From the NCBI GenBank assembly GCA_018268595.1, contig JAFDWH010000014.1:186001-250000 (forward strand): a DNA stretch of 64,000 nt, written 5' to 3'. Source of the stretch: Actinomycetota bacterium. Lineage in GTDB: Bacteria; Actinomycetota; Thermoleophilia; Solirubrobacterales; Solirubrobacteraceae. Both the position numbers and the translations under genes were made by a program. Each line of letters opens with the position of its first letter. Within the stretch, counting starts at the first letter, position 1. This document shows, in pieces, positions 1,293 through 64,000 of the stretch. The notes beneath the pieces were generated by a model that worked only from the letters and a program-made list of their open reading frames with translations, made no database searches and was not told the origin of the DNA.

Positions 1293-1299
1293 GGCGTTC

Positions 1300-1824
1300 A
1301 TGTCACCGTTCACCGCACTGCTGAGCGACGCCGTCAACGGCGCGCTCGCGCTGCCGTCGATCCCGCTCCAACTCGCGCGCATCGCCGAGGCGACCGACGC
1401 GCTGCCCGAGCTGCGTCGCGAGATGGCGCGCGTGGCCAAGGCCACCGACACGCTGCCGGGCATCCGTCACGACATGGCGCGCGTCGCCGAGGCGACGGAA
1501 GTGCTCCCTGCGGTGCTGGCGGCGCTCGAGAAGGTCGCCGAGCAAACCGCGGTGTTGAGCGACATCGACGAGCACACGACGCACATCGAGCGGATGCTCC
1601 CCGCGCTGGTGGAGCTCGAGCGCTCGCTGCCGGAGCTGACGCCCGCGATCGCGAGATTGACGGAGCCGATCGAGCGTCTGCTGCTCGTGCTCGACCACCT
1701 CGACGGGACGATGAACACGCTCGTGCACGTCGTCGAGCCGCTCCAGGGCCCCGCCGAGCGCTTCGGCCGCCTCGCCGGCCGCTTCCCCCGACGCTCCGGC
1801 AACGGCAGAGCGACCGGAGGCTAG
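1300..1824 (+). CDS. Helical 17-residue-repeat protein, unknown function
   Basis: A 174-residue protein I cannot assign to a characterised family. Residues 26-93 are four tandem 17-residue units (consensus ARVAEATDxLPxIRxxM), followed by further amphipathic helices and a C-terminal PLQGPAERFGRLAGRFPRR stretch. Short phasin-like or envelope-associated actinobacterial proteins end in a similar way, but that is only a resemblance. The composition predicts a long amphipathic alpha-solenoid or coiled coil able to coat a surface (membrane, granule or polymer). It has no transmembrane segment or signal peptide. It converges on rarA with a 4-base overlap of the stop codons. Codon use is like its neighbours, so it is a real gene. 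Confidence 0.75.
   Translation: MSPFTALLSDAVNGALALPSIPLQLARIAEATDALPELRREMARVAKATDTLPGIRHDMARVAEATEVLPAVLAALEKVAEQTAVLSDIDEHTTHIERMLPALVELERSLPELTPAIARLTEPIERLLLVLDHLDGTMNTLVHVVEPLQGPAERFGRLAGRFPRRSGNGRATGG
1375..1578 (+). repeat. Four in-frame 51-base repeats (17 aa each)
   Basis: Residues 26-42, 43-59, 60-76 and 77-93 of the helical protein align without gaps. Positions 3 (I/V), 4 (A), 7 (T), 10 (L) and 11 (P, or S in unit 4) are conserved. Unit 4 is the most diverged. Confidence 0.75.
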
Positions 1825-3128: not shown

Positions 3129-3160
3129 AGGTCGGCAGGTTCCGTAGCATCAGCTCGCCG

Positions 3161-4474
3161 ATGAGCCACGAACTCCAGACCGCCACCACCGAGCTGCTGC
3201 AGCGGCTGATCCGCTTCGACACGGTCAACCCGCCAGGCAATGAGCGCCTGCTGCAGGAGTACCTGCTCGGAGAGCTGACGAGCGCCAGCTTCGACTGCGA
3301 GCTGCTCGGCGCCGAGCCGCAGCGGCCGAACCTGCTCGCGCGGCTGCGGGGCGCGCAGGACGGCCCCACGCTCTGCCTGCTGGGCCACGTCGACACCGTC
3401 CTCGCCCACCCGGCGGAGTGGACGCACGAGCCGTGGTCCGGCGACGTCGCCGACGGCTTCGTGTGGGGACGCGGCGCGCTCGACATGAAGTCGCAGGTCG
3501 CGGCCGAGATCGCCGCCGCGCTCGCACTCGCGCGCTCAGGCTGGCGCCCGACGCGCGGCGAGCTGCTGATCTGCGCGGTCGTCGACGAGGAGACCGGCGG
3601 CGCGCTCGGCGCGCAGTGGATCACCGAGACGCATCCGGACAAGGTGCGCTGCGACTACCTGATCAACGAGGGCGGCGGTCCCTTCTTCGAGTACGACGGC
3701 GCGCGCCGCTACGGCGTCTGCTGCGCCGAGAAGGGCGTCTTCCGCTTCAAGCTGATCACCGACGGCGTCGCCGGCCACGCGTCGCTGCCGAAGATGGGCG
3801 ACAACGCGCTGCTGAAGCTCGGACCGCTGCTCGAGCGGCTCGGCGCGCGGCAGCCGTCCTACGCGATCACCGACGTGCCGGCGGCGTTCCTGCGCGGGCT
3901 CGGCGAGGACCCGGCCGACCCGGCCGGCGCGGTGCGGCGCCTCGCCGCGGCCGACCCGCGCCTCGCGACGATGTTCGAGCCGATGCTCGGCGTCACCTTC
4001 ACGCCGACGCGCGCGGCCGCCTCCGAGAAGGTCAACGTGATCCCCAGCCGCGCCGAGCTGCACGTCGACTGCCGCGTCCCGCCCGGACTCGGCGAGGACG
4101 AGGTGCGCCGCGCGATCGCGGAGGTCCTCGGGGCGGGCGGGGACGGGGACGGCTTCCGCGTCGAGTTCACCGAGCAGGTCGTCGGCAACGGCTCGCCGCT
4201 CGACTCGCCGCTGCGCGAGGCGATCGACGGCTGGATCGCCGAGCACGACCCCGGCGCCGTGACCGTGCCGGTGATCCTGCCCGGCTTCACCGACTCGCGC
4301 TGGTTCCGCAAGACGTTCCCGGACTGCGTCGCCTACGGCTTCTTCCCGCACCGCCACCAGTCGCTGCTGGAGGCCGCGCCGCTCGTGCACGGCGCCGACG
4401 AGCGCGTCGACGTGCGCGACCTCGGCTACGCCGCGCGTTTCTACGCGGACGTGGCGCGCACGCTGCTCGGTTGA
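3161..4474 (+). CDS. M20 family metallopeptidase (ArgE/DapE-like)
   Basis: A 437-residue cytosolic M20/M25/M40 zinc amidohydrolase that would cleave an N-acyl or peptide bond of a small substrate. Visible metal ligands are H in LLGHVDTV, D in GRGALDMKSQ, the DEETGG glutamate pair and a distal H in FFPHRHQS. A dimerisation lid lies between the two catalytic halves. There is no signal peptide. The ATG at 3161 is chosen because the protein then begins with the family-typical ELLQRLIRFDTVNPPGNE; the longer frame upstream lies antisense to rarA. TAGCAT lies ten bases before the start. The exact substrate cannot be read from the sequence. Confidence 0.88.
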   Translation: MSHELQTATTELLQRLIRFDTVNPPGNERLLQEYLLGELTSASFDCELLGAEPQRPNLLARLRGAQDGPTLCLLGHVDTVLAHPAEWTHEPWSGDVADGFVWGRGALDMKSQVAAEIAAALALARSGWRPTRGELLICAVVDEETGGALGAQWITETHPDKVRCDYLINEGGGPFFEYDGARRYGVCCAEKGVFRFKLITDGVAGHASLPKMGDNALLKLGPLLERLGARQPSYAITDVPAAFLRGLGEDPADPAGAVRRLAAADPRLATMFEPMLGVTFTPTRAAASEKVNVIPSRAELHVDCRVPPGLGEDEVRRAIAEVLGAGGDGDGFRVEFTEQVVGNGSPLDSPLREAIDGWIAEHDPGAVTVPVILPGFTDSRWFRKTFPDCVAYGFFPHRHQSLLEAAPLVHGADERVDVRDLGYAARFYADVARTLLG

Positions 4475-4505
4475 GGCGCGCGGCCGAGCTGCCGATGAGG
4501 ACCTC

Positions 4506-6017
4506 GTGAGCGTCCTCGCGTCATTCCTCGGCTCCTACGACTTCTCGTCCTGGGCGCAGACGTGGCTGCCCATCATCTTCATGGGCCTGCTCGTGCTCGC
4601 CCTGTTCGCGGCGCTGCGCCACATGCCGCGCACGAAGCCCCAGCAGATCAAGCCGGACCGGTCGCCGCAGATCGCCTGGGACGAGATCGCCGGCGCCGAC
4701 GAGGCGAAAGAGGAGCTGCAAGAGGTCGTCGAGTTCCTGCGCGACCCCAAGCGCTTCAAGCAGCTCGGGGCGACGGTCCCGAAGGGCATCCTGCTGCACG
4801 GTCCGCCCGGCACCGGCAAGACGCTGCTCGCGAAGGCGGTCGCGCACGAGTCGGGCGCGAACTTCTTCGCCCAGTCGGCCGCCTCATTCGTCGAGATGTT
4901 CGCGGGCCTCGGCGCGGCGCGCATCCGGCGCCTCTTCAAGATCGCGCGCCAGAAGGCGCCGGCGATCGTCTTCATCGACGAGCTGGACGCGGTCGGTGGC
5001 CGCCGCGGCGCTGACATCAGCGGCGAGAAGGACCAGACGCTCAATCAGCTGCTGGTCGAGCTGGACGGGTTCGATGCCCGCAGAGAGGTCGTCGTCATCG
5101 CCGCCTCGAACCTGCTGGAGAAGCTCGATCCGGCACTGCTGCGCCCCGGCCGCTTCGACCGCCAGATCTTCGTCGCGCCGCCCGACCGCCGCGGGCGGGA
5201 GCGGATCCTCGGCGTTCACACGCGCGGCAAGCCGCTTGCGCCGAGCGTCGACCTCGAGGTGATCGCGCGTCAGACGAGTGGCCTCGCCGGCGCCGACCTC
5301 GCGAACATCTGCAACGAGGCGGCCATCTTCGCCGCGCGCCGCCACGCCGACCTGATCACCTCAGCTGACTTCGACGCCGCGCTCGAGCGCGTCGTCGCGG
5401 GCATGCAGGCGCGCCGCGCGCTCGGCGAGCGCGAGAAACGGATCGTCGCCTACCACGAGGCCGGCCACGCGCTGTGCGCGGAGCTGCTGCCGTCCGTCGA
5501 CCGCGTCCACCGCATCTCGATTGTGCCGCGCGGCCGCGCGCTCGGCTACACGCTCAACCTGCCCGAGGAGGATCGCTACCTCAAGACGCGCGAGGAGCTG
5601 ATCGACCGCATGACGATGCTGCTCGGCGGTCGCGCGGCGGAGCAGCTCGTGTTCGGCTCCGTCACGACCGGCGCGGCCGGCGACTACGAGGCGGTCACCG
5701 TGCTCGCCGCCGCGATGATCGACGAGTACGCGATGGGCACGCGCGTGAAGCTGCAGCGGACCGGCGGCCCCGTCGCCTCCGCCGAGGCGACGCTGCGGCT
5801 GCGCGACGAGGAGCAGCACGAGCTGGCGGACGGCGCCTATCGCTGTGCGCTCGCGCTGCTCGGCGAGCACCGCCGCTGGCTCGACGCGCTCGCCGAGGCG
5901 CTGCTCGAGTCCGAGGTGCTCGAGCGCGCCGACGTGGACCGCCTGCTGGAGGACCTGCCGCGCTCGGCAGGCGCATCGCGCGGCGGCCAGCTCGGCGTCG
6001 CGGCCTCGCGCGACTGA
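4506..6017 (+). CDS. FtsH-like membrane AAA+ zinc metalloprotease, short N-terminus
   Basis: An FtsH-family protease of 503 residues. One transmembrane helix (about 19-37) is followed directly by the AAA+ domain: Walker A GPPGTGKT at 99-106, Walker B IVFIDELDAVGG, and the second region of homology with LRPGRFDRQI. The peptidase domain has HEAGH at 317-321 and the third-ligand segment TGAAGDYEAVT. Classical FtsH has two membrane helices around a periplasmic domain of about 70 residues and is over 600 residues long; both the first helix with its periplasmic domain and the long C-tail are missing here. All catalytic residues are present, so it should be active, possibly as a second, specialised FtsH. 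The start is GTG. Confidence 0.9.
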   Translation: MSVLASFLGSYDFSSWAQTWLPIIFMGLLVLALFAALRHMPRTKPQQIKPDRSPQIAWDEIAGADEAKEELQEVVEFLRDPKRFKQLGATVPKGILLHGPPGTGKTLLAKAVAHESGANFFAQSAASFVEMFAGLGAARIRRLFKIARQKAPAIVFIDELDAVGGRRGADISGEKDQTLNQLLVELDGFDARREVVVIAASNLLEKLDPALLRPGRFDRQIFVAPPDRRGRERILGVHTRGKPLAPSVDLEVIARQTSGLAGADLANICNEAAIFAARRHADLITSADFDAALERVVAGMQARRALGEREKRIVAYHEAGHALCAELLPSVDRVHRISIVPRGRALGYTLNLPEEDRYLKTREELIDRMTMLLGGRAAEQLVFGSVTTGAAGDYEAVTVLAAAMIDEYAMGTRVKLQRTGGPVASAEATLRLRDEEQHELADGAYRCALALLGEHRRWLDALAEALLESEVLERADVDRLLEDLPRSAGASRGGQLGVAASRD

Positions 6018-6018
6018 C

Positions 6019-6024
6019 TATCCT
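6019..6024 (+). promoter_or_regulatory. -10-like TATCCT, leaderless start
   Basis: TATCCT lies seven bases before the GTG of the epimerase gene and just after the FtsH stop codon. This suggests an independent leaderless transcript rather than simple read-through. Confidence 0.4.
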
Positions 6025-6031
6025 CCGGCCC

Positions 6032-6442
6032 GTGCTGGGACGCATCGACCACATCGGCGTCGCCGTCGAGGACCTCGACACCGCTCTGAAGCTGTATGCC
6101 GACGTCCTGAAGATGCCGGTCGTGCACCGCGAGACGGTGACCGAGCAGGGCGTCGAGGCGGTCCTGCTCGACGTCGGCGAGAGCCATGTCGAGCTGCTCG
6201 CGCCGCTCGGCCCCGACACGCCGGTCGGCAAGTTCCTCGCGAAGAAGGGCCCCGGCCTGCACCACGTCGCCTATCAGGTGAGCGACATCGAGGCGACGCT
6301 CGCCGCACTGAAGGCGGCCGGCACGCGCCTGATTGACGAGACGCCGCGGATCGGGATCCGCAACTCGCGCGTCGCGTTCGTGCATCCGGCGTCGACCGGC
6401 GGCGTGCTGACCGAGATCGTGCAACCCGCGGAGGACCACTAG
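6032..6442 (+). CDS. mce: Methylmalonyl-CoA epimerase
   Basis: A 136-residue vicinal-oxygen-chelate (glyoxalase fold) protein that interconverts (S)- and (R)-methylmalonyl-CoA in propionyl-CoA catabolism. It shows IDHIGVAVEDLDTALKLY at the N-terminus, ESHVELLAP, the metal-ligand segment GPGLHHVAYQV and a C-terminal GVLTEIVQP glutamate. The length equals the family norm. The GTG at 6032 is used because IDHIGVAV is the canonical N-terminus. Its stop codon abuts the ATG of the next small gene, so they are cotranscribed. The mutase and propionyl-CoA carboxylase genes are not in this window. Confidence 0.9.
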   Translation: MLGRIDHIGVAVEDLDTALKLYADVLKMPVVHRETVTEQGVEAVLLDVGESHVELLAPLGPDTPVGKFLAKKGPGLHHVAYQVSDIEATLAALKAAGTRLIDETPRIGIRNSRVAFVHPASTGGVLTEIVQPAEDH

Positions 6443-6670
6443 ATGGCCGAGGTCAGGCAGCGCATCACGATCGGCTTCCACGGCCAGACGGTCGCCGCGC
6501 GCGTCGGCGACGAGCAGCTCGCCGCCTTCCGGCGGGCGCTCGAGGAGAGCAAGGGCACGGCCGACTGGTACGAGCTGCAGGCCGAGGACGGCACGATCTC
6601 GCTCGACCTCGCGAAGGTCGTGTTCGTGCAGGTCGACGCCGCCGAGCAGCGCGTCGGCTTCGGCGCTTGA
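6443..6670 (+). CDS. Small conserved hypothetical protein (75 aa)
   Basis: A 75-residue protein with an alternating beta-alpha-beta pattern (RITIGFHGQTVAARV, helical AFRRALEESKG, TISLDLAKVVFVQVD). It somewhat resembles the small DUF3107-type actinobacterial proteins, especially in the C-terminal strand, but I cannot confirm the family. The ATG immediately follows the epimerase stop codon, and its own stop overlaps the TTG start of the PAP2 gene. It therefore sits in a tightly coupled operon from mce to ychF. No catalytic motif is visible. Confidence 0.7.
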   Translation: MAEVRQRITIGFHGQTVAARVGDEQLAAFRRALEESKGTADWYELQAEDGTISLDLAKVVFVQVDAAEQRVGFGA

Positions 6671-7176
6671 ACCGCTTGATCGGCCGGCTCGCCGCGCTGG
6701 ACGTCGCCGGCCTGCGCCTCGCGCGGACCGTCGCGCACACGCCGCGCGCCGAGCGCGCGGTCCGCGCCTACTCGACGCTCGGCCAGCACGGCGCGCTGTG
6801 GCTCGCGCTCGGCGCCGCCGGCGCGGCGCTCGACGGCGGGCGCGGCGCGCGCTGGCGCCGCGCGACGCTCGCCGTCGCCGCGGCCTACGGCGCCAACCAG
6901 GCGGTCAAGCTCGCCGTCAGGCGCCGGCGGCCTCGGCTCGCCGGCCTGCCGCCGCTGATCGGCACGCCGACGCAGCTCTCCTTCCCCAGCGCGCACGCCG
7001 CCACCTCGGCCGCCGCCGTGCACGCCTTCCGCCACCTGCTGCCGCGCGGGCCGCTGCGCGCGGCGGCGGTCGCGATGACGTGGTCGCGGCTGTACCTCGG
7101 CGTCCACTACCCGTCGGATATCGTCGCCGGCGTGGCGCTCGGGGCGGCGATCGGACGGATCGGGGACGACCGGTGA
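6667..7176 (+). CDS. PAP2-family membrane phosphatase
   Basis: A 169-residue integral membrane phosphatase of the PAP2/undecaprenyl-diphosphatase superfamily. All three signature blocks are present: KLAVRRRRPRL (the K-x6-RP block), FPSAHA, and SRLYLGVHYPSDIVAG with the catalytic histidine and aspartate. The hydrophobic stretches allow about four membrane helices. Likely substrates are lipid phosphates such as phosphatidate or polyprenyl pyrophosphate. The TTG start overlaps the preceding stop codon as TTGA, and its own stop overlaps the ychF start as GTGA, indicating translational coupling. Confidence 0.88.
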   Translation: MNRLIGRLAALDVAGLRLARTVAHTPRAERAVRAYSTLGQHGALWLALGAAGAALDGGRGARWRRATLAVAAAYGANQAVKLAVRRRRPRLAGLPPLIGTPTQLSFPSAHAATSAAAVHAFRHLLPRGPLRAAAVAMTWSRLYLGVHYPSDIVAGVALGAAIGRIGDDR

Positions 7177-8252
7177 AGGTCGGCATCGTCGGCATGCCGA
7201 ACGCCGGCAAGTCCTCGCTGTTCAACGCGCTCACGCGCGCGGGCGCGGAGGCCGCCAACTACCCGTTCACGACGATCGAGCCGAACGTCGCGATCGTGCC
7301 GGTCGCCGACGAGCGGCTGGAGCGGCTCGCGGCGACGCTGAGAGCGAGCGAGGTCGTGCACGACACGATCGCCTTCCACGACATCGCCGGCCTCGTGAGA
7401 GGCGCGTCGGAGGGCGAGGGGCTCGGCAACAAGTTCCTCGCGAACATCCGCGAGACGGACGCGATCGTGCACGTCGTGCGCGCGCACGGCGACGAGAACG
7501 TCGTGCATCCCGAGGGCCGCGTCGACCCGCGCGCCGACATCGACACGATCGAGACCGAGCTGACCTACGCCGACCTGGAGCAGGCCGAGCGGCGCCTGGA
7601 GCGCGTGACGAAGGCGGCGCGCGGCGGCGACAAGGCCGCGAGAGCGGAGCAGGCGTGGCTGGAGGAGCTGGTCGCCGCGTTGCAGGAAGGGCGCCCGGCG
7701 CGGACCGTGCCGCCGCCGGAGGACGCGCCGAACGCGTTGCGCGACCTGCAGCCGCTGACCGCCAAGCCGGTGCTGTTCGTCGCCAACGTCGACGAGGGCT
7801 CCGACGACGTGCCGGCGGAGGTCGCCGCGCACGCGGACGCGCACGGGGCGCGCGCCGTGGCGGTCTCCTCGCGCATCGAGGCCGAGCTGAGCGAGCTGGA
7901 CGACGAGGAGGCGGCGGTCATGCGGGCCGAGCTGGGCATCGCGGAGAGCGGTCTCCAGCGCGTCGTGCGCGGCGCGTTCGCGCTGCTCGACCTGATCGCC
8001 TTCTTCACCGCCGGCGAGGGCAAGCCGGCGCAGTCGTGGCACCTGCGCAGAGGGCTGACCGCCTGGCACGCCGCCGGGCAGATCCACTCGGACATCCAGC
8101 GAGGCTTCGTGCGCGCCGAGGTGATCGGCTGCGACGAGCTGGTCGACGCCGGCGGCTACGGCGCCGCGCGCGAGCGCGGCACGCTGCGGCTCGAGGGGCG
8201 CGACTACGTGATGCGGGACGGCGACGTGCTGACCGTCAAGTTCACGCCGTAG
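7173..8252 (+). CDS. ychF: Ribosome-binding ATPase YchF (Obg family)
   Basis: A 359-residue YchF/OLA1-type P-loop protein that binds the 50S subunit and hydrolyses ATP. The P-loop GMPNAGKS is at residues 7-14, followed by NYPFTTIEPN, HDIAGLVRGASEGEGLGNKFL (the G3 region, quoted here in part) and a C-terminal TGS domain with LIAFFTAGEGKPAQSW. The length is typical. The start is a GTG at 7173 overlapping the PAP2 stop. It is the last gene of the mce-ychF run and converges on the flavin reductase with an 11-base overlap. Confidence 0.95.
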   Translation: MKVGIVGMPNAGKSSLFNALTRAGAEAANYPFTTIEPNVAIVPVADERLERLAATLRASEVVHDTIAFHDIAGLVRGASEGEGLGNKFLANIRETDAIVHVVRAHGDENVVHPEGRVDPRADIDTIETELTYADLEQAERRLERVTKAARGGDKAARAEQAWLEELVAALQEGRPARTVPPPEDAPNALRDLQPLTAKPVLFVANVDEGSDDVPAEVAAHADAHGARAVAVSSRIEAELSELDDEEAAVMRAELGIAESGLQRVVRGAFALLDLIAFFTAGEGKPAQSWHLRRGLTAWHAAGQIHSDIQRGFVRAEVIGCDELVDAGGYGAARERGTLRLEGRDYVMRDGDVLTVKFTP

Positions 8253-8841
8253 GCCAGCGCGGCCGGTCGATCTCCAGCAGCTCGCCGAGCGTCGTCCACT
8301 GTCTGCCGCCGAGGCGCGCGAGCGGGCGCAGCAGCTCGGCCGCCGGCCGCCCGTCGCGCATCGCCGTCTGCGCGATCGCGACGTGCACCACGCGGCCGAA
8401 CACGACGGTCGAGTCCCCGAACGACAGCGTCTCGTGCAGCACGCACTCGATCGCCACCGGCGCGTCGCGCACGCGCGGTGGCGCGACCCGCAGGCTCGGC
8501 TCGCGCGCGATCCCGACATGGTCGAACTCGCTGACGTGCGGCGGGGCGTTGACGCTCGTCGCGTTGACCGCCTCGAACAGCGGCTCGGGCGTGAAGTTGA
8601 CGACGAACTCGCCCGTCGCCTCGACGTTGCGCAGCGAGTCCTTGCGGCCGACGGAGGTGAACTGCACGATCGGCGGGGCGGTGCACGCGACCGTGAAGAA
8701 CGAGTGCGGCGCGAGGTTGTCGACCCCCTCCGCCGAGCGCGACGAGACCCACGCGATCGGCCGCGGGATCACGACGCGGTTCAGCAGCCGGTAGAACGCG
8801 AGCGGGTCGGTCCGCTCGGGATCGAAGTCCACGCGCGCCAC
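8242..8841 (-). CDS. Flavin reductase family protein (FMN-binding split barrel)
   Basis: A flavin-reductase-like protein of 199 residues. Its N-terminal half carries YRLLNRVVIPRPIAWVSSRS, then NLAPHSFFTVACTAPPIVQF and GEFVVNFT, the FMN-binding split-barrel pattern seen in many DIM6/NTAB-type proteins. The catalytic partner is unknown. The frame stays open up to 9081, but that part is arginine-rich and runs antisense to the small gene 8898-9110. The GTG at 8841 (VARVDFDPERTDPLAFY) gives the family-typical N-terminus. It is probably monocistronic; the ychF stop codon overlaps its 3' end. Confidence 0.85.
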   Translation of the reverse strand: MARVDFDPERTDPLAFYRLLNRVVIPRPIAWVSSRSAEGVDNLAPHSFFTVACTAPPIVQFTSVGRKDSLRNVEATGEFVVNFTPEPLFEAVNATSVNAPPHVSEFDHVGIAREPSLRVAPPRVRDAPVAIECVLHETLSFGDSTVVFGRVVHVAIAQTAMRDGRPAAELLRPLARLGGRQWTTLGELLEIDRPRWPTA

Positions 8842-8897
8842 GGCGACGATGATCGCAGGCGCGCTCGCCGTCTCGCGCGCTTGTCGCCTCGCGCGCG

Positions 8898-9110
8898 TCA
8901 GTCGCGAGCCCGCGCTGCCGCTTCGCGTTCCGCGCGCCGCTGCTCCCGCAGGTATCGCCGATACCACCCCACCGCCGCGATCTTCTCCCGCAGCGTCCGG
9001 CGGGGCGGGATGTCGCTCATCAGCACGCCGTAGTCGTGAGAGACGAATGGGTCCGGAGTCTGCGGGTTGTACAGCCGCCAAATGCGTTCTCTTCGCTCTT
9101 GTTCGTCCAT
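8898..9110 (-). CDS. Small basic hypothetical protein (70 aa)
   Basis: A 70-residue protein of unknown function. It has an acidic/aromatic front (RLYNPQTPDPFVSHDYGVLM), a PPRR turn and a highly charged C-terminal helix rich in Arg, Glu and Ala. GAGG lies seven bases before the ATG at 9110. It starts 13 bases after the stop of the membrane gene 9124-9585, so the two probably form one unit. Base composition here is visibly less GC-rich than in the flanking housekeeping genes. No domain is recognised. Confidence 0.6.
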   Translation of the reverse strand: MDEQERRERIWRLYNPQTPDPFVSHDYGVLMSDIPPRRTLREKIAAVGWYRRYLREQRRAEREAAARARD

Positions 9111-9123
9111 CGCGATCCTCCGG

Positions 9124-9585
9124 TTAGACGGTGACTGTCGCTGCGATCAGCGTCAACAGCATCTGAATGGCAAGAAGGCAGGCACCGATGCGAAAGCTGC
9201 TCGACATCTGCTCGAGCCGTCGCGCATTGACGCGGTGATACCTCGCGATTCGCGCGATGAGGTCTGCGCTGAGCGCCGTGCCGTCGGGTTCGCCGCTCGC
9301 AAGGTGCGACGCGAGCAGCGTCTGCGGGTCGGTGCTGAAGGCTCGGTCTCCATGCGGCCAGATCACCGCAAGCACACACAGGCTCAGGAGCACAAAGCAC
9401 AGGACGGCGAGCCACGCCAGTGGCCGCACCGCGCCGACCGACTCACGTCCGAACGAGACAGCGATCGAAGCTGCGGCGAGCAGCATCCCAGAGCGGCTCT
9501 GGAGCTCCGACGCCACCGCCCGCTGCTGCTCCAGCGCCCGCACTGCCTCGCGGTATGCCAGCTCGTACGCGTCCTCGATCGCCAC
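9124..9585 (-). CDS. Three-helix membrane protein of unknown function (153 aa)
   Basis: An N-terminal amphipathic helix (about 1-30) is followed by two close hydrophobic segments (about 32-47 and 55-75), a soluble stretch of about 55 residues and a last membrane helix at 131-152. This layout resembles small actinobacterial hypothetical proteins and, loosely, the SLATT/effector-type membrane proteins found next to nucleotide-signal or toxin genes; no homology can be shown here. It leads a two-gene unit with the small protein at 8898-9110. The lower GC suggests transfer. Confidence 0.65.
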   Translation of the reverse strand: MAIEDAYELAYREAVRALEQQRAVASELQSRSGMLLAAASIAVSFGRESVGAVRPLAWLAVLCFVLLSLCVLAVIWPHGDRAFSTDPQTLLASHLASGEPDGTALSADLIARIARYHRVNARRLEQMSSSFRIGACLLAIQMLLTLIAATVTV

Positions 9586-9644
9586 CGGCCGACGGTATGG
9601 CTGCGCATCGCGACGGCGCTACCGGCGTCTGTGACGAATCGGCG

Positions 9645-10514
9645 TCAGAGGCGCGACGGGTCGCCGGCGCCGCGCAGGCGCGCCGCGAGTCTGAGCATCC
9701 CGAGCTGCTCGGCGGCGTTGGCGCCGGCGTCGAGGTCGGTCGCGCGGTCGGCGGGGCGGACGACCTCCACCCGCTGGAGCGTGGCGATCGCCAGGAAGTC
9801 GCGCAGCTCGCCGGCCTGGTCACGCAGCGCGCCCTGCACGCGCGGCGTCTCGCCGATCGGTCTCGCGAGCGCGGCCTCGAGCGAGCCGTGCCGCGCCAGC
9901 AGGTCGGCCGCCGTCTTCTCGCCGATCCCTCTCGCGCCCGGCAGCCCGTCCGACGGATCGCCGCGCAGCGCGATGAAGTCGGGCACCAGCTCCGGCGGAA
10001 CGCCGTAGCGCTTGCGCACCTCCGCGGGACCCATCTCCTCGAACCCTCTGACGCCCGTCTTCAGGTACAGGACCGTCACCGCCGGCGCGGCGCACTGGAA
10101 CATGTCGCGGTCGCCGGTCATCAGCAGCGCCGAGCCGCCCGCCTCGACCTCCGTCAGCGCGAACGAGTGCAGCAGGTCGTCGGCCTCCAGCTCCTCCGTC
10201 GCCGCGAGCGTCCAGCCGAGCGCTTCGAACAGCACCGGGGAGTGCGCGATCTGCCACGCGAGCCCCTCCGGCACCGGCGGGCGGTCGGCGTGGTAGCCGG
10301 CGTACAGCTCGATCCGGTAGCGGGCCGCCTCCGCGCCCGAGCAGATCACGACCGCGCGCGGCGCACGGTCGGCCACCACGCGCAGGATCGCGTTCGTCGC
10401 CCCGAGCAGCGCGTTCACCGGCCGCCCGTCCGCATCGGTGATCGAGTCCGGCAGCGCGAACCACGCGCGGTAGAGCAACGAGGGCGCATCCACGACGAGA
10501 AGCGGCGCTGGCAT
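9645..10514 (-). CDS. 5'-3' exonuclease/flap endonuclease (Pol I N-domain-like)
   Basis: A 289-residue stand-alone homologue of the 5'-nuclease domain of DNA polymerase I, expected to remove 5' flaps or RNA primers. Acidic metal-binding motifs are visible: LLVVDAPSLLYRAWFALP, ELEADDLLHSFA, LLMTGDRDMFQ and ALRGDPSDGLPGARGIGEKTA (the H3TH region, DNA-binding). The N-terminus is complete. No polymerase domain follows. The ATG at 10514 has TAGGCT seven bases upstream and shares a 26-base intergenic region with the divergent MaoC gene. Confidence 0.92.
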   Translation of the reverse strand: MPAPLLVVDAPSLLYRAWFALPDSITDADGRPVNALLGATNAILRVVADRAPRAVVICSGAEAARYRIELYAGYHADRPPVPEGLAWQIAHSPVLFEALGWTLAATEELEADDLLHSFALTEVEAGGSALLMTGDRDMFQCAAPAVTVLYLKTGVRGFEEMGPAEVRKRYGVPPELVPDFIALRGDPSDGLPGARGIGEKTAADLLARHGSLEAALARPIGETPRVQGALRDQAGELRDFLAIATLQRVEVVRPADRATDLDAGANAAEQLGMLRLAARLRGAGDPSRL

Positions 10515-10540
10515 CGCCGGCAGCCTAGTACGGTCGCCGC
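10515..10540. promoter_or_regulatory. 26-base divergent promoter region, both genes leaderless
   Basis: TAGGCT (minus strand, 10522-10527) lies seven bases before the exonuclease ATG, and TACGGT (plus strand, 10529-10534) lies six bases before the MaoC ATG. The two -10-like elements almost touch, and no Shine-Dalgarno sequence fits in the space. Confidence 0.55.
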
Positions 10541-10996
10541 ATGATCACGCTCAACGGCATCGACGACATCAAGGCGCGCATCGGCGAGGAGCTGGGCGTC
10601 AGCGAGTGGCACCTCGTCACGCAGGAGGACATCGACGCGTTCGCCGACGTGACAGGCGACCACCAGTGGATCCACGTCGACGTCGAGCGAGCGCAGCAGA
10701 CGCCCTTCGGCGGGACGATCGCGCACGGCTACTACACGCTCTCGCTTGCGCCGAAGTTCACGTACGAGCTGTTCTCGGTCGAGGGCTTCGCGTTCGGCAT
10801 CAACTACGGGCTCAACAAGGTGCGCTTCCCCGCGCCGCTGCCGGTCGGCAGCAAGGTGCGCATGCGCGCCGCGATCGCCTCCGTCGAGGACGTACCGGGC
10901 GGCATCCAGATGGCGACCGCGCTGACGTTCGAGCGCGAGGGCGGCGAGAAGCCGGTCTGCGTCGCCGAGACGCTCGTGCGCCTCTACACCGGCTGA
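10541..10996 (+). CDS. MaoC-family (NodN-like) enoyl-CoA hydratase/dehydratase
   Basis: A single hot-dog-fold MaoC protein of 151 residues. The motif ADVTGDHQWIHVDVERA carries the Asp and His of the hydratase 2 active site, followed by FGGTIAHGYYTLSLAPK (substrate pocket and dimer helix) and a NYGLNKVRFPAPLPVGSKVR strand pair. Such proteins hydrate trans-2-enoyl-CoA thioesters in fatty-acid or polyketide metabolism; the chain-length preference is unknown. No cotranscribed partner is evident. Confidence 0.9.
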   Translation: MITLNGIDDIKARIGEELGVSEWHLVTQEDIDAFADVTGDHQWIHVDVERAQQTPFGGTIAHGYYTLSLAPKFTYELFSVEGFAFGINYGLNKVRFPAPLPVGSKVRMRAAIASVEDVPGGIQMATALTFEREGGEKPVCVAETLVRLYTG

Positions 10997-11083
10997 CCGC
11001 CCGCTCCGCGTTCGACGGCTGACCGCGCCGCCGGCGAGCGTCAGCTCGCCGGGCGGCCGGGGACGCCGCCCGCGACGCCGCCG

Positions 11084-12244
11084 ATGCGCAAGGGGATCTC
11101 GCTGATCGGGGACGTGAACCGCTACGACGACGCGCTCGGCGTGCGCCCGTACCTGCTCGCCGGGACGCACCCGACGACGTTCGTCTCGCTGTGGCTGAGC
11201 TGGCCGACCGTCCAGCCGCTCGCACCCGAGCCGTTCACGCGCGAGCAGGCGGCCGCCGACCTCGGCGACCCGGCCGGGCCGGCCGCGGCCGTCTTCGCGG
11301 CGCTCGACGCGCAGATCGCGCGTGCGAAAGCCGACGGCCTCGAGGTCGCGCTGACGCTGTGCCAGGCGTTCCCGGACTGGACGCACGCGCCCGGCACCGT
11401 CCCGCCGGCGCCGCTGCCGCCCGACGCGCAGGTGCCTGCCGACCGCTCCCTCGACGGCCCGTGGGCGTGGCTCGTCGCCTACCTGTGCGAGCGCTACGCG
11501 CGCGGCGGCGCCGGCAACCCGGTCGGCGCGCGCGTCGACCGGCTGCAGCCGATGAACGAGCCGAACCTGACCTGGTGGCCGCAGGCGTCCCCCGCCTACC
11601 CGGGCGGGACGATCGCCGGCGCGGTCGCGGAGCTGGCCCGCAGCGCGGCGACCGTCGCCGCCGCGGTGCCCGGCAGCCCGGGGCTGCTGCTGCCGGCGAC
11701 GTCCGACGTCGTGAGCGCCGCCAGCCCCCACGGCACCCCGTGGGACGCGTTCACCGACGAGCTGCTCGCGCGCCTGCGCGGCTGGCGACCGGGCGTGCCG
11801 GTCGGCTGGGCGCAGCACAACTACGCCGACGTCAAGCTCGGCCCGCTGCCCGACGGCCGCTGGCGCGTCGAGCGGCTGCTCGAGCTGCAGCGCGCGCACG
11901 ACTGGCCCGAGCCGTCCGTGTGGCTGACCGAGGGCGGGTACCAGTTCGGCGTGCGGCGCGACGGCTGGATCGCGCCCGACGTCGAGCGCTGGGTCGTCGA
12001 TCCCGACAGCGCACGCGACGCGGCGCACGCCGATGCGGTCGCCGAGCAGGTCGCCGCAATCGAGCGCAACTGGGCGGCGATGGCGACGCTGCCGGTTCGC
12101 CTGTGGACGCAGTACCAGGTCAACGACCGCGACGTGCGCTTCCAGTCGAGCCTGCGCGGTCCGGTGCGCGAGACGCCGGCGGGCCGCCTTCCGAACGACC
12201 CGCCGTATCCCGCGTACGAGCTGTGGCCGACGCTGTCGGCCTGA
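11084..12244 (+). CDS. Clan GH-A-like glycoside hydrolase (TIM barrel), cytosolic
   Basis: A 386-residue protein that looks like a retaining (beta/alpha)8 glycoside hydrolase. QPMNEPNLTWWP places a probable acid/base Glu at residue 159 and SVWLTEGGYQFG a probable nucleophile Glu at 283; this spacing fits clan GH-A (GH5/GH39-like). Other barrel-lining motifs are FVSLWLSWP, WAQHNYADVK and LWTQYQVND. There is no signal peptide, so it would act inside the cell or leave by another route. The glycan substrate is unknown. It is an isolated gene, convergent with fumC. Confidence 0.75.
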   Translation: MRKGISLIGDVNRYDDALGVRPYLLAGTHPTTFVSLWLSWPTVQPLAPEPFTREQAAADLGDPAGPAAAVFAALDAQIARAKADGLEVALTLCQAFPDWTHAPGTVPPAPLPPDAQVPADRSLDGPWAWLVAYLCERYARGGAGNPVGARVDRLQPMNEPNLTWWPQASPAYPGGTIAGAVAELARSAATVAAAVPGSPGLLLPATSDVVSAASPHGTPWDAFTDELLARLRGWRPGVPVGWAQHNYADVKLGPLPDGRWRVERLLELQRAHDWPEPSVWLTEGGYQFGVRRDGWIAPDVERWVVDPDSARDAAHADAVAEQVAAIERNWAAMATLPVRLWTQYQVNDRDVRFQSSLRGPVRETPAGRLPNDPPYPAYELWPTLSA

Positions 12245-12292
12245 CGCGGCTTTCGCCCTCCGGTCACCGCAAGCGGCGACCCGTGGGCAACG

Positions 12293-13618
12293 TCACCCGC
12301 CCCGCGCGATTCTGCGCAGGTCGAGCGCCTCGGCCAGCACCGACTCCTCGACGCCCGCCTCGAGCGCGACCTCGCGCAGCGTGCGACCGGAGGCGGTCGC
12401 CTCCTTGACGATCTCGGTCGCCTTGTCGTAGCCGATGAACGGGTTCAAGGCCGTCGCGACCGCGAGCGTGGACTCGGCCGAGCGCTCGCAGCCGGCGAGG
12501 TTCGCCTCGATCCCGTCGACGCACTTCTCCGCGAACAGGCGCGAGGTCGAGGCGAGCAGGCGGACCGACTGCAGCAGGTTGCGCGCGATCAGCGGGATGC
12601 GCACGTTCAGCTCGAACTGGCCCTGCAGGCCGCCGACCGTGATCGCGGCGTCGTTGCCGATCACCTGCGCGCTCACCTGCAGCACGACCTCGGGGATCAC
12701 CGGGTTGACCTTCCCGGGCATGATCGAGGAGCCCTTTTGCAGCTCGGGCAGGAACAGCTCGCCGATGCCGGCGCGCGGGCCCGATCCCATCAGCGCGAGG
12801 TCGTTCGCGATCTTCGTCAGCGAGACGGCGATCACCTTGAGCGCGCCCGACAGCTCGACGAGCGCGTCGCGGTTCGCCTGCGCCTCGAACGGGTCCTCCG
12901 GCGGCGAGATCGCAAGGCCGCTGGCCTCGCTCAGCTTCGCCCGCACGCGCGCCGCGAACTCGGGATGCGTGTTGAGGCCGGTCCCGGTCGCGGTGCCGCC
13001 GAGCGGGATCTGCGCGACCTGCGGCAGCGCGCCCTGCACGCGCCGCTGGGCGAGGCGGAGCTGCGCGGCGTAGCCGGCGAACTCCTGCCCGAGCGTGACC
13101 GGCACCGCGTCCATCAGGTGCGTGCGACCCGACTTGACGACGTCCTCGAACGCCGCCGCCTTCGCCGCGAACGACGCCTCCAGCTGCGCGAGCGCCGGCA
13201 GCAGGTCGTTCGTCGCCTCGTCCAGCGCGGCGAGGTGCACGGCGCTGGGGAAGACGTCGTTCGACGACTGGCCCATGTTGACGTGATCGTTCGCGTGCGT
13301 GCCCTCGCCGGCCAGCGCCGCGATCACCTCGTTCGCGTTCATGTTCGAGGAGGTGCCCGAGCCGGTCTGGAAGACGTCGACCGGGAACTGGTCGTCGTGC
13401 TCGCCGGCCGCGATCGCGTCCCCGGCCGCGCCGATCCGCTCCGCGAGCGCGCCGTCGAGCAGCCCCAGCTCGCCGTTCACGCGCGCCGCGGCGCCCTTGA
13501 TGCGACCGAGCCAGCGCACGACCGGCACCGGCACGCGCTCGCCCGACACCGGGAAGTTCGCGACCGCCTTGGTCGTCTCACCGCCCCACAGCTGCTGCTC
13601 CGTCTCCTGCACGCCCAT
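12293..13618 (-). CDS. fumC: Class II fumarate hydratase FumC
   Basis: A 441-residue iron-independent fumarase of the TCA cycle that interconverts fumarate and malate as a homotetramer. It shows SSNMNANEV, the THANDHVNMGQSSNDVFPSA block (split here), KSGRTHLMDAVPVTLGQEF and the superfamily signature GSSIMPGKVNP. The length is slightly short of the E. coli enzyme but complete. The start is an ATG at 13618. It is the promoter-distal member of a minus-strand run with the hydrolase and lipoprotein upstream, though a link is not obvious. Confidence 0.96.
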   Translation of the reverse strand: MGVQETEQQLWGGETTKAVANFPVSGERVPVPVVRWLGRIKGAAARVNGELGLLDGALAERIGAAGDAIAAGEHDDQFPVDVFQTGSGTSSNMNANEVIAALAGEGTHANDHVNMGQSSNDVFPSAVHLAALDEATNDLLPALAQLEASFAAKAAAFEDVVKSGRTHLMDAVPVTLGQEFAGYAAQLRLAQRRVQGALPQVAQIPLGGTATGTGLNTHPEFAARVRAKLSEASGLAISPPEDPFEAQANRDALVELSGALKVIAVSLTKIANDLALMGSGPRAGIGELFLPELQKGSSIMPGKVNPVIPEVVLQVSAQVIGNDAAITVGGLQGQFELNVRIPLIARNLLQSVRLLASTSRLFAEKCVDGIEANLAGCERSAESTLAVATALNPFIGYDKATEIVKEATASGRTLREVALEAGVEESVLAEALDLRRIARGG

Positions 13619-59997: not shown

Positions 59998-60071
59998 GTT
60001 CGTACGCGAACGTGGCACGTGCGCATGCGAACCTCCACCCCCGCTTGACCCCGCCGATCGGGCTCTATGCT
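59998..60071 (+). promoter_or_regulatory. TetR-type palindrome and promoter of the TetR gene
   Basis: GTTCG-TACG-CGAAC (59998-60011) is a 14-base inverted repeat. TTGACC (60045-60050) and TATGCT (60066-60071) form a promoter with a 15-base spacer. The ATG at 60079 lies seven bases after the -10, so the transcript is probably leaderless; the in-frame ATG at 60067 lies inside the -10. The rest of 59949-60078 shows nothing else. Confidence 0.5.
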
Positions 60072-60078
60072 GCCGGGA

Positions 60079-60771
60079 ATGCCGAACCGCGCCTCCGGTG
60101 TGATGTGGGACCGCCTCGTCGAGGAGGCCGCGCCCGGCGCCCGTGCGCGCGGCGGTCTGAGCCTCCAGGCGATCGTCGACACGGCGATCGCGATCGCGGA
60201 CGTCGACGGGCTCGACGCCGTCTCGATCCGCCGCGTCGCGGCCGTCCTCGAGGTGCGGCCGATGAGCCTCTACACGCACATCGCCAGCAAGGACGAGCTG
60301 CTCGCGCTGATGGCCGACGAGCTGATCGGCACGCTGCTCGTGGAGCAGCCGCTGCCCGACGACTGGCGCGAGGCGCTGACGGTGCACGCGCGCAAGATGT
60401 TCCTGATGTGCGTCTCGCACCCGTGGCTGCTCGCGCTCTTCACGCGCCGTCCGCGGCCCGGCCCCAACGCCGCGCGGCAGGCGAAGCAGGCGGCGCGCGC
60501 GTTGGAGGGTCTGCCGCTGCCGGCCGAGGAGCGCTGGAAGGTGCTCGGCATCGTCAACGACTACGTGATCGGCAACGCGCTGCGGGTCGCGACGACCGGA
60601 ACCGCGAGAGACCTCGTCGAGGCGCTGACCGCCGCGGACAGAGCGGCGCGGCCGGAGCTCGACGCGCTGACGGCCTTCGAGGACTCGCGCCTCGCCGACG
60701 AGACGTTCGGGCTCGGCCTGCGCGTCGTGCTCGACGGCGTCGAGCGCCGCTTCCTCAGCGGGCCGCGCTGA
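60079..60771 (+). CDS. TetR/AcrR-family repressor (TetR_C_1 type)
   Basis: A 230-residue repressor. The HTH runs SLQAIVDTAIAIADVDGLDA, VSIRRVAAVLEVRPMSLYTH, followed by a tetracycline-repressor-like C-terminal ligand domain. The start at 60079 is chosen from the promoter position. Its 3' end overlaps the convergent Rieske gene by 17 bases. The likely targets are itself and possibly the neighbouring terpene operon, though the operon promoter is outside the window. Confidence 0.88.
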   Translation: MPNRASGVMWDRLVEEAAPGARARGGLSLQAIVDTAIAIADVDGLDAVSIRRVAAVLEVRPMSLYTHIASKDELLALMADELIGTLLVEQPLPDDWREALTVHARKMFLMCVSHPWLLALFTRRPRPGPNAARQAKQAARALEGLPLPAEERWKVLGIVNDYVIGNALRVATTGTARDLVEALTAADRAARPELDALTAFEDSRLADETFGLGLRVVLDGVERRFLSGPR

Positions 60772-61816
60772 GCGCCGCCGCGGCGTCGCGCGCGCGGGCC
60801 GCCGGCGAGGCCGGATAGAACTGCTCGGTCCAGCGCCGGAAGGCCGGCAGCGGGCCGTCGCCCTTCGCCAGCCGCGGCTGCTCGACGTACACCTTGTGCT
60901 CCCATATCGGGAAGTCGCGCTCCAGGTCGCGCCTGAAGGCGGGGCCGAGCGCGTGCGTCAGCAGCCGCGACGCGAGCAGCTGCGCGCGTGGGTGCGCCGG
61001 GTCGCCGCCGACGCGCAGCGCGACGCTGAAGCGGATCGCGACGCGCAGCGGGTCGAGCGGCGTCGCCATCGCCTGGAACTGCGCCGCCGCGCGCAGGCGC
61101 GGGATCGTCGCGTCGACCCAGATGTGCCCGAGGCCGTCCACGGCGATGTCGAAGACGATCTCGACCGGGCCGGCGAGCGGGAACACGCGCTGCCCCGTCG
61201 CGGCGAGCGTGAAGGACGGCCCGCGCGGCTCGAACGGGCGCCGGACGCGCACGCCGCGGTAGCCGTGGACCGGGCCGATGTGGCCGATGTCGACCGCGTT
61301 CTCGACGATGTCCTGCGGGTGGTCGACGAGCGTGGAGAGCTGCCGGAAGGGCGCCGGGAAGCCGTCCCTCGAGCGCGCCGGGACCTCCCAGTCCGGCGGC
61401 GCGCCGCCGGCGTGGTGCCACACGAGGATCGCGCCGTTGACCTCGCGCACCTCGCGCCGCACGAGCCGCGCGGACGGCGGTCTCGTGCCGTAGCCCGTGC
61501 GCACGCACGTGCCGCTGACGTCGAACGCGAAGCGGTGGAACGGGCACACGATCTGCTCGCCCTCGACCCAGCCGCCGTGGCCGAGGTGCGCGCCGAGGTG
61601 CGGGCAGTACGGCTCGACGGCGCGCACGACGCCGCTGCGCGTGCGGTAGACGACGAGGTCCTCGCCCATGAAGCGGGGGCGCAGCACGCGGCCCGGCGGC
61701 AGCTCGTCGGCGAACGCGACCGCGAACCAGCCGTTCGGATACGGCAGGCGTGGTTGCCGCTCGGCGAGCGGCGGCGGCGGCGCGGGCGGGCGGTGGGCGC
61801 GCGGCGGGCGGATCAC
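60755..61816 (-). CDS. Rieske non-heme iron oxygenase (KshA/DAF-36-like)
   Basis: A 353-residue oxygenase. The Rieske [2Fe-2S] ligands are C71-P-H73 and C91-P-F-H94 (YCPHLGAHLGHGG and CPFHRFAFD). The catalytic mononuclear iron site has D176, H179 and H184 in VENAVDIGHIGPVHGY (D-x2-H-x4-H). The layout resembles 3-ketosteroid 9-alpha-hydroxylase and cholesterol 7-desaturase, which act on terpenoids. The GTG start overlaps the terpene synthase stop (GTGA). It is likely to oxidise the synthase/P450 product. The needed ferredoxin reductase is not in the window. Confidence 0.9.
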   Translation of the reverse strand: MIRPPRAHRPPAPPPPLAERQPRLPYPNGWFAVAFADELPPGRVLRPRFMGEDLVVYRTRSGVVRAVEPYCPHLGAHLGHGGWVEGEQIVCPFHRFAFDVSGTCVRTGYGTRPPSARLVRREVREVNGAILVWHHAGGAPPDWEVPARSRDGFPAPFRQLSTLVDHPQDIVENAVDIGHIGPVHGYRGVRVRRPFEPRGPSFTLAATGQRVFPLAGPVEIVFDIAVDGLGHIWVDATIPRLRAAAQFQAMATPLDPLRVAIRFSVALRVGGDPAHPRAQLLASRLLTHALGPAFRRDLERDFPIWEHKVYVEQPRLAKGDGPLPAFRRWTEQFYPASPAARARDAAAALSAAR

Positions 61817-62895
61817 GCCAGCTCCTCCCACCACCAGGCGATCGCCGGATACGGCAGCGGCGCGAGGCTGTCGTCGCGGGGGGCGTCGGCCCAGCCGGGG
61901 AACGTCAGCAGCGCCGGGGCGCCGGGGTCGCCGCCGGTGACGTAGCGGGCCGTGCGGAAGCCCCAGTCGAGGATCGCCCGCCACGTGTGCGCGAGGCTCG
62001 CGAGGAAGCGCGCGAGCGGCGCGTCGCCGTCCGCCTGCGCGAGGAGCTGCCCGTGCAGCGCGAGGAACAGCGTCGCGATGCGGTCGCACAGCGCGTGCGC
62101 CGCGTGCAGCGCCTCGCGCGGCGCGCAGCTGCGCTCGTGCGCGAGCACGGCGACGACGTTGCTGGAGCTGTCGGCGTTGCGCGCCTCCTTCGCGAACGAC
62201 ATCAGGTCGTTCAGCAGCAGGCAGAAGGTCGACCACGCCTCGACCAGCGCGCGCACCGGGCCCGACGCCGCCCGCGCCGGCGCCAGCTCGATCCCGTTCG
62301 CGATGTTGAGCGTCGTCAGCCAGCTCGCGAGCCCGCCCGTGTGCATCCGCATCGCGAGGTACTCGTTGAGCGACGGCGGCGTCCCGCGCTCGGCGTTCGC
62401 GACGTCCCACGCCATCCCGAAGAACCAGGCGCGCGCGGTGTGCGCCCACTCGATCCGCTGGCTCGGCGTCGCGTGGCGCAGGATCGCGCGCGTCAGGTCG
62501 CGCAGCGCCGCGTCGTACGGCAGCGGCCACGCGAAGCCCGCGCGCGGCTCCTCGCTGAGGCGGACGAGCGGGGCGCCGAGCGCGAGGAAGTCGGCGACGC
62601 GCCTGCTCGTCGGGCCGTTGTCGTAGTAGAGGTCGTCGGTCGCGAAGCCCCAGTAGAGCCACTTCGCGACGTCGGCGACGCGCTCGGCGTCGGCCGTCGG
62701 CAGCGCCCGCGCGTAGACCTCCGCCGCGCGCGTGGCGATCAGCCGCTCGCGCTGCGCCTCCCCGCCGTACAGCTCGAAGCGGTCGATCCACGCGACGCAG
62801 TGGCGCTCGATCTCCTCGGCGCGCGGATGGACCGCCGCCGGGAAGGGGCAGTGGAACGGCTGCAGCTCGAGCGCCGGCGCTACCGCGGGCGGCAT
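61813..62895 (-). CDS. Class I terpene synthase (bacterial family 2)
   Basis: A 360-residue class I terpene cyclase. The aspartate-rich motif is D87-D88-L-Y-Y-D92 and the NSE triad N229-D230-x2-S233-x3-E237 (NDLMSFAKE) is complete. Arg183 lies exactly 46 residues before the NSE Asn, as expected of the pyrophosphate sensor, and the RY pair is R317-Y318. All metal and diphosphate ligands are intact, so it should be active. The product (sesqui- or diterpene) cannot be told. It starts 16 bases inside the P450 gene and its stop overlaps the Rieske start. Confidence 0.92.
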   Translation of the reverse strand: MPPAVAPALELQPFHCPFPAAVHPRAEEIERHCVAWIDRFELYGGEAQRERLIATRAAEVYARALPTADAERVADVAKWLYWGFATDDLYYDNGPTSRRVADFLALGAPLVRLSEEPRAGFAWPLPYDAALRDLTRAILRHATPSQRIEWAHTARAWFFGMAWDVANAERGTPPSLNEYLAMRMHTGGLASWLTTLNIANGIELAPARAASGPVRALVEAWSTFCLLLNDLMSFAKEARNADSSSNVVAVLAHERSCAPREALHAAHALCDRIATLFLALHGQLLAQADGDAPLARFLASLAHTWRAILDWGFRTARYVTGGDPGAPALLTFPGWADAPRDDSLAPLPYPAIAWWWEELA

Positions 62896-64000
62896 CGGAT
62901 CCGCACCGGCCTCGAAGGACGGATCGTGCTGAGCTGGTCCATCGGCATGTCGGCGTCGAGCGACTCGATCCGGCAGCGCTCCAGCAGCGCGCGCACGAAG
63001 CTGCGCGACTCGGCCAGCGAGAGGTGCCGCCCGATGCACGCGCGCGCGCCACCGCCGAACGGGAACCAGGCGTGCTGCGGCCGCTCGTCGCGCGCGTGCG
63101 CGTCGGCGAAGCGCGACGGGTCGAACCGCTCGGGGTCGCGCCAGAAGCCGGGATGGCGGTGCGTGACCCAGGGCGAGACGAGCACGCCGGTGCCCGGCGG
63201 CAGCGTGCGCCCGGCCACCTCGGCGCCGCCCGCGCCGACGCGACGGCCGAGCACGTACGAGGGCGGGTAGAGCCGCAGCCCCTCCTGCACGGCCGCGTCC
63301 GCCCACTGCTCGCCGCCGGCGGCGACCTGCTCCTGCGCCTCGGGGTGGCAGCCCAGCAGCTGGAGCGTCGAGCAGAGCGCGGCCGACGTCGTCGTGTAGC
63401 CGGCGAGCAGGAACATCAGCGCCTGGTCACGGATCTCGCGCTCCGACAGCGGCTCGCCGCCCGCGGGATCGCGCGCGGCGCGCAGCTGGCTCAGCAGGCC
63501 GGGCCCGTCGCCCTCCGGCGCGCGGGCGAGCACGCGCTCGATCGTCGCGTGCAGCGCGCTGCGCGTCGCGGCGAAGCGGCGGTTGCGCGGCGTCGGCCAG
63601 GCGAGCGGGAGCCGCACCGTCTGCTTCGCGCGCGCGGGCATCTGACGGCTCACGACCGGTATCAGCCGCTCGAGCGCCGCGACGGTGTCGTCGTCGATCC
63701 CGCGGTCGTCGCCGAAGAGGGTGCGGCTGAGCACGCGCAGGGCGTAGCGCTCGGTGGTGCGCAGCGCGTCGATCGTGGTCGCGGGCTCGCGGCCGAGGCG
63801 CTCGACCGCCGCGTGCGCCTCCTCCTCGATCACGGCGGCGTAGCGGCTCGCCGCCGCGCGCGTCAGGAGCGGTTGCAGCAGCCGCTTCTGGCGGCGCCAG
63901 TCGTCGCCCTCGGCCGTCGCGATGTTGCGCCCGAACAGCTCGCGCACCGCGCGGTAGGAGGCCGTCCTGCGGGTGAACGCCTCGGTGTCGGCGAAGAAGC
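62880..64000 (-). CDS. Cytochrome P450, C-terminal part (cut by window edge)
   Basis: A P450 that runs off the right end; 373 residues are visible. The I-helix is LLAGYTTTSAAL, the K-helix E-x2-R is EGLRLYPPS, the PERF region is DPERFDPSRF and the heme loop is FPFGGGARACIG with the cysteine ligand. The visible N-side (FFADTEAFTRRTASY then RNIATAEGDDWRRQKRLLQP, C-helix WxxxR) is standard. The sequence style is like the CYP102/CYP183-type enzymes that oxidise terpenes. The overlap with the terpene synthase indicates a shared operon. Redox partners are not visible. Confidence 0.9.
   Translation of the reverse strand, partial: FFADTEAFTRRTASYRAVRELFGRNIATAEGDDWRRQKRLLQPLLTRAAASRYAAVIEEEAHAAVERLGREPATTIDALRTTERYALRVLSRTLFGDDRGIDDDTVAALERLIPVVSRQMPARAKQTVRLPLAWPTPRNRRFAATRSALHATIERVLARAPEGDGPGLLSQLRAARDPAGGEPLSEREIRDQALMFLLAGYTTTSAALCSTLQLLGCHPEAQEQVAAGGEQWADAAVQEGLRLYPPSYVLGRRVGAGGAEVAGRTLPPGTGVLVSPWVTHRHPGFWRDPERFDPSRFADAHARDERPQHAWFPFGGGARACIGRHLSLAESRSFVRALLERCRIESLDADMPMDQLSTIRPSRPVRIRCRPR

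Follow-up and report, generated by a model that had tools for sequence, protein, structure and literature searches.

Four overlapping genes at the end of the analysed DNA encode a polyprenyl diphosphate synthase, a cytochrome P450, a class I terpene synthase and a Rieske non-heme iron oxygenase. We consider it likely that this operon makes an oxidised sesterterpenoid (C25) and that the sesterviridene locus of Kitasatospora viridis is its ortholog.

The operon and its surroundings

The window (the whole 64,000-nucleotide stretch that was analysed) corresponds to positions 186001-250000 of a contig of 289 kb, from a genome of 3.57 Mb that is 98.9% complete. As the contig continues past the window end, sequence beyond position 64000 was read for upstream genes. 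This extension, suggested in the original prediction, located the start of the P450 gene at 64247 and a prenyltransferase gene directly upstream. The genes of the operon and the adjacent regulator gene are, in window coordinates:

64244-65341 (window-equivalent; contig 250244-251341), wholly beyond the window, minus strand: polyprenyl diphosphate synthase, 365 aa, PF00348 (198.9 bits)
62880-64247 (window part 62880..64000), minus strand: cytochrome P450, 455 aa, intact, PF00067 (197.1 bits)
61813-62895, minus strand: class I terpene synthase, 360 aa, PF19086 (113.9 bits against a cut-off of 23.7)
60755-61816, minus strand: Rieske non-heme iron oxygenase, GTG start, 353 aa, PF00355 and PF19298 (KshA_C)
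60067-60771, plus strand: TetR-family regulator, PF00440 and PF02909

The four minus-strand genes lie head to tail in the order listed, with the prenyltransferase gene first and the Rieske oxygenase gene last, and the first 247 bases of the P450 gene lie beyond the window end. Consecutive genes overlap by 4 bases (prenyltransferase/P450, an ATGA overlap), 16 bases (P450/synthase) and 4 bases (synthase/Rieske), the last two junctions agreeing with the three minus-strand genes overlapping by 4-16 bases that had been described from the window alone. All four proteins score far above their Pfam family cut-offs and keep their catalytic motifs. Overlapping, full-length family members whose order is kept in another family of the phylum are far beyond what chance would produce. 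Immediately 5' of the prenyltransferase start there is an A+T-rich stretch (window-equivalent 65342-65399; 52% G+C against a background of 73-76%), which is a candidate promoter or leader. A sigma-70-like promoter or consensus could not be found ahead of the prenyltransferase gene.

The TetR gene is convergent with the operon, overlaps the 3' end of the Rieske oxygenase gene by 17 bases and follows gnd-zwf on the other strand. The 32 kb stretch read at the K. viridis operon contains no relative of this gene. The regulator had been counted as part of the set in the original prediction; the gene is real, but its orientation, its position behind gnd-zwf and its absence at the K. viridis locus speak against a role as pathway regulator, and it is probably not part of the operon unit.

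An M48 peptidase gene beside the operon has homologues of 67-74% identity in five of the six congeners, which indicates that the contig belongs to the genome. The M48 flank was not syntenic in the four congeners read, and an empty insertion site was not found there. The G+C content of the operon (76.1%, against 73.5% for the window) gives no sign of foreign origin. No relatives of the synthase were detected among 398 other genomes of the class (127 other genera), there is no second PF19086 synthase in the genome, and among 298 further genomes of its class the P450 finds no match above 37% identity. The operon is probably an accessory cassette gained horizontally.

The terpene synthase and the Kitasatospora viridis locus

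The synthase has the Asp-rich motif DDLYYD at residue 87, the NSE triad (NDLMSFAKE) at residue 229, an RY pair at residue 317 and a diphosphate-sensing arginine, Arg183, exactly 46 residues ahead of the NSE triad. Together with its alpha fold these features place it among the class I synthases, and the motifs and the PF19086 match bear out the intact class I cyclase of the original prediction. An AlphaFold2 model of the protein had a pLDDT of 94.3, and its top structural match in the PDB was 9rs2 (Z 51.4, rmsd 1.1, 64% identity). This entry shows the complex with GFSPP, a surrogate of the C25 substrate, and is one of four (9rrz, 9rs2, 9rs4 and 9rs5) whose titles name them as a sesterterpene synthase of Kitasatospora viridis; together they comprise an apo structure, the GFSPP complex and the V57L and I303Y variants. 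All four match the model with Z of 49-51 and rmsd of 1.1-1.3. The same four entries are also the nearest solved structures by sequence, at 64% identity. K. viridis possesses the sesterviridene synthase (PMC10509563, citing Xu et al. 2023, doi 10.1002/anie.202306429); the identifiers 9RRZ, 9RS2, 9RS4 and 9RS5 had no relevant mention in the literature searched.

Selinadiene, spiroviolene and cattleyene synthases were the next structural matches, at 33-40% identity. By sequence, the K. viridis enzyme is the best match to the window synthase (492 bits), with the next family at 227 bits. The score of the window synthase to the NCBIfam equivalog for selinadiene synthase (217 bits) falls below the cut-off of 450, which argues against that identity. 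The two mutated residues of the K. viridis enzyme, V57 and I303, lie in the active site and correspond to V60 and I308 in the window synthase, where the same residues are found. Among 44 other relatives, the V57 site holds F, L or, in one case, V, and the I303 site holds N, C, H, A and others; the I303-site residue therefore differs in all of them and the V57-site residue in all but one. In a tree with these 44 sequences, the window and K. viridis synthases form an isolated, fully supported pair. On the basis of its sequence and modelled structure, we propose that the window synthase is a sesterterpene (C25) synthase of the sesterviridene type. The 64% identity and the two shared residues are strong evidence for a C25 substrate, not proof.

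A first scan of named genomes with the window synthase and 9rrz yielded no match. A genome with a 64% match to the synthase was found by searching the family that holds Streptomyces. The synthase in this genome matches 9rrz at each of the 352 residues compared (100%), and we therefore took the genome to be that of K. viridis. Its locus contains a polyprenyl synthase, a P450, the synthase and a Rieske oxygenase, in the same order and on one strand as in the window operon. These are 52%, 44%, 63% and 56% identical, respectively, to their window counterparts, and all three junctions are 4-base overlaps. The genes that flank the operon in the window (gnd, zwf, TetR, M48 peptidase and others) are all missing from the 32 kb of the K. 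viridis contig that were read, so the shared cassette consists of exactly four genes. On the 3' side of the four K. viridis genes, on one strand with them, are a short-chain dehydrogenase gene and an erythromycin-esterase-like gene (positions 7363-9605 of the stretch read), possibly encoding extra tailoring steps that have no counterpart in the window operon.

The original prediction was right that two oxygenase types accompany a class I synthase in one compact operon, as the gene calls and motifs confirm. It had also held that no pathway of this make-up was described. This was correct in so far as the literature searched (a limited collection) gave us no account of the P450 and Rieske steps of K. 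viridis; it was mistaken in that the same set surrounds the solved K. viridis synthase. The search it had called for, for P450/synthase/Rieske triplets elsewhere, thus turned against it: the triplet is a shared cassette, present in K. viridis beside a structurally characterised cyclase. A scan of named genomes with a wider search pattern recovered 46 synthase relatives at 27-42% identity (the K. viridis genome is not among them). A Rieske gene lies near the synthase only in a Collimonas MAG, and the four-gene set is found beside none of the 46. No synthase was present within 1.5 kb at the 29 other Rieske loci in our sample of the phylum.

Accompanying enzymes and the proposed pathway

The operon prenyltransferase contains two DDxxD motifs (DDVLD at residues 109 and 235), as expected of a trans-prenyltransferase. 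It is one of three PF00348 genes in the genome, the others being of the FPP-synthase type and the long-chain type. The best NCBIfam scores of both the operon enzyme and its K. viridis counterpart are to long-chain models, all far below the cut-offs. In a phylogenetic tree the operon enzyme pairs, on long branches, with the host's long-chain enzyme and not with the prenyltransferases encoded beside spiroviolene-type synthases. A prenyltransferase adjoins the sesterterpene synthase at the sesterviolene locus (PMC10107272), and in Streptomyces mobaraensis the prenyltransferase beside a sesterterpene synthase was shown to make geranylfarnesyl diphosphate (GFPP) (PMC7693059). Given this precedent and the sesterterpene synthase next door, the best assignment of the operon prenyltransferase is a putative GFPP (C25) synthase, its chain length being deduced from these neighbours.

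The P450 has the expected I-helix (AGYTTT, residue 282), ExxR (EGLR, residue 322) and heme-cysteine (FGGGARACIG, residue 397) motifs and is a member of its family. In the Rieske oxygenase, the cluster ligands C71, H73, C91 and H94 and the iron site D176, H179, H184 and D301 are all present, the latter confirming the complete iron site that had been reported for this protein. A structure prediction for this enzyme from three sequences had a pLDDT of 44 and was left out of the analysis. The enzyme is the only KshA_C protein of the genome and, with Rieske and KshA_C domains and complete metal sites, it qualifies as KshA-type by domain content. The original description of it as KshA/DAF-36-like therefore holds for the KshA_C domain but not for the phylogeny, in which it does not group with KshA. 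In a tree of 40 members it falls in a clade of 14 (support 100/99), together with oxygenases of betaproteobacterial terpene loci and of Streptomyces loci, some of them polyketide-type. The verified KshA lies outside this clade, although it is a single reference and itself a long branch. When the K. viridis Rieske oxygenase was added, the clade was kept, and the K. viridis protein was nearest to the window enzyme by path, with the fork that joins them lacking resolution. The score of the window enzyme to the NCBIfam equivalog for SdmA-type 4beta-methylsterol monooxygenases is low (54.5 bits against 600), and this assignment was rejected. The KshB-type reductase domain PF00970 (FAD_binding_6) has no match in the whole genome, so the electron donor of the Rieske oxygenase must be of another family. 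From its sequence we propose that this enzyme is a tailoring hydroxylase or desaturase.

In the proposed pathway, the prenyltransferase would extend C5 and C15 precursors to GFPP. The synthase would then ionise GFPP via its Asp-rich motif, NSE triad and Arg183, yielding a polycyclic sesterviridene-like hydrocarbon or alcohol. Finally, the P450 and the Rieske oxygenase would each modify a different position, by adding oxygen or introducing a double bond, with redox partners encoded elsewhere. We infer the first two steps from homology to characterised systems, and the action of both oxygenases on the terpene, its positions and its order from their conserved co-occurrence. The substrates originally proposed for expression of the synthase (GPP, FPP and GGPP) omit GFPP, the likely one.

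The chain length of the substrate is not predictable from the phylogeny of bacterial terpene synthases (PMC10509563), so a diterpene (C20) or sesquiterpene (C15) pathway has to be considered, fed by a GGPP-making prenyltransferase or by the host FPP pool, with the likeness to K. viridis reflecting scaffold ancestry. Chain length often switches between relatives (PMC10509563), and the wider clade includes spiroviolene and cattleyene synthases, which use GGPP, and selinadiene synthase, which uses FPP. We nevertheless regard a C20 or C15 product as unlikely: the residue pair at the V57 and I303 sites is shared with the C25 enzyme only, the prenyltransferase is unlike those beside the relatives of spiroviolene synthase, and the whole set of four genes parallels that of K. 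viridis. A different objection concerns the oxygenases, whose only link to the terpene is gene order. One of them could have another substrate or be dispensable, giving a singly oxidised product, and the nearest Rieske relatives outside terpene loci are partly in polyketide-type clusters. Against this, both oxygenase genes overlap the adjoining genes in the window operon as well as in K. viridis. The proteins of the two lineages have drifted apart to 44-63% identity; that such overlaps are retained nonetheless argues that all four genes serve one product, and we think it improbable that either oxygenase stands apart.

There is very little to recommend a role in steroid or terpenoid degradation, with the Rieske oxygenase as a KshA-type 9-alpha-hydroxylase. 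Its KshA_C match is above the cut-off and KshA provides the closest solved Rieske structures; yet the enzyme groups away from true KshA in a supported clade of specialised metabolism, a KshB-type reductase domain was not found in the genome, and the cyclase and prenyltransferase are biosynthetic.

For the oxidised C25 product, we see about an even chance of a further-reaching reading. In it, a single C25 skeleton is decorated by both the P450 and the Rieske oxygenase, and the latter belongs to a Rieske clade dedicated to terpenes, comprising actinobacterial C25 loci and betaproteobacterial methyltransferase-cyclase loci, with undescribed substrates and chemistry.

Comparison with known terpene and Rieske loci

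Few bacterial class I sesterterpene synthases have been characterised, examples being those for sestermobaraene, sesterviolene and sesterviridene (PMC7693059, PMC10107272, PMC10509563). Final oxidised products of their pathways were largely not found in the literature searched. The sestermobaraene locus of S. mobaraensis (PMC7693059) and the sesterviolene locus (PMC10107272) share with the window operon a GFPP prenyltransferase adjoining a class I sesterterpene synthase. However, the sestermobaraene locus is described as a two-gene cluster and its cyclase, SmTS1, is only about 26% identical to the window synthase, while no P450 is near the sesterviolene synthase gene (as stated in PMC10107272). 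The spiroviolene, cattleyene and selinadiene synthases have the same class I fold and motifs at 33-40% identity, but they take C20 or C15 substrates and the V57 and I303 sites differ in the spiroviolene group.

KshA, the 3-ketosteroid 9-alpha-hydroxylase, resembles the window Rieske oxygenase in domain architecture and metal ligands. The window enzyme differs in its separate position in the tree, in lacking a steroid context and in the lack of a PF00970 reductase in its genome. Duell et al. 2019 (PMC6366047) reported Rieske proteins for clusters of the sodorifen-like kind in Serratia sp. FS14, P. chlororaphis and B. pyrrocinia, so the pairing of a Rieske gene with a class I synthase has precedents. 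Such clusters combine an FPP methyltransferase with a terpene cyclase. In the B. cenocepacia and Collimonas loci of this kind, a Rieske oxygenase of the window enzyme's clade adjoins the terpene synthase. These two loci differ from the window operon in their methyltransferase and their pair of Rieske genes, and the stretch read contains no relative of the window P450. The window operon has no gene for an FPP C-methyltransferase and was not assigned to the sodorifen-like clusters.

Several of the loci read along the way have features of their own. In Burkholderia cenocepacia CMCC(B)23006 (NZ_CP091014.1:22721-39635, stretch positions 5771-10051), the gene order is methyltransferase, PF19086 synthase, Rieske, Rieske, a sodorifen-like arrangement with tandem Rieske genes of the window enzyme's clade. 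The Collimonas fungivorans MAG (NZ_JAQGLV010000218.1, 344-13486; the species label is that of the MAG) has ispG, a prenyltransferase, a methyltransferase, three terpene synthases, dxs, a dUTPase_2-like gene and two Rieske genes, and thus built-in genes for precursor supply. On plasmid p2 of Planktothrix agardhii (NZ_LR882940.1:31258-48199), a P450, an ERG4/ERG24-type sterol reductase, three Rieske oxygenases and an emopamil-binding-family protein adjoin one another, in what looks like a tailoring set for sterols or triterpenoids.

The closest known system is the sesterviridene synthase locus of K. viridis (PDB 9RRZ, 9RS2, 9RS4, 9RS5), with which the window operon shares the cyclase fold, the active-site positions, the four-gene order and the overlapping junctions. 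The two loci differ in their flanks and in the dehydrogenase and esterase-like genes, which are not directly behind the window operon. The oxygenases are only 44% (P450) and 56% (Rieske) identical, and the decoration of the product may therefore differ. That a diverged second locus of the K. viridis type has kept the P450 and the Rieske oxygenase with the cyclase points to an oxidised end product, and two homologous gene sets are now available for reconstitution. Judged by its sequence, the window operon is very probably an ortholog of the sesterviridene locus, and thus another instance of a pathway that has hardly been explored and not a new kind of system.
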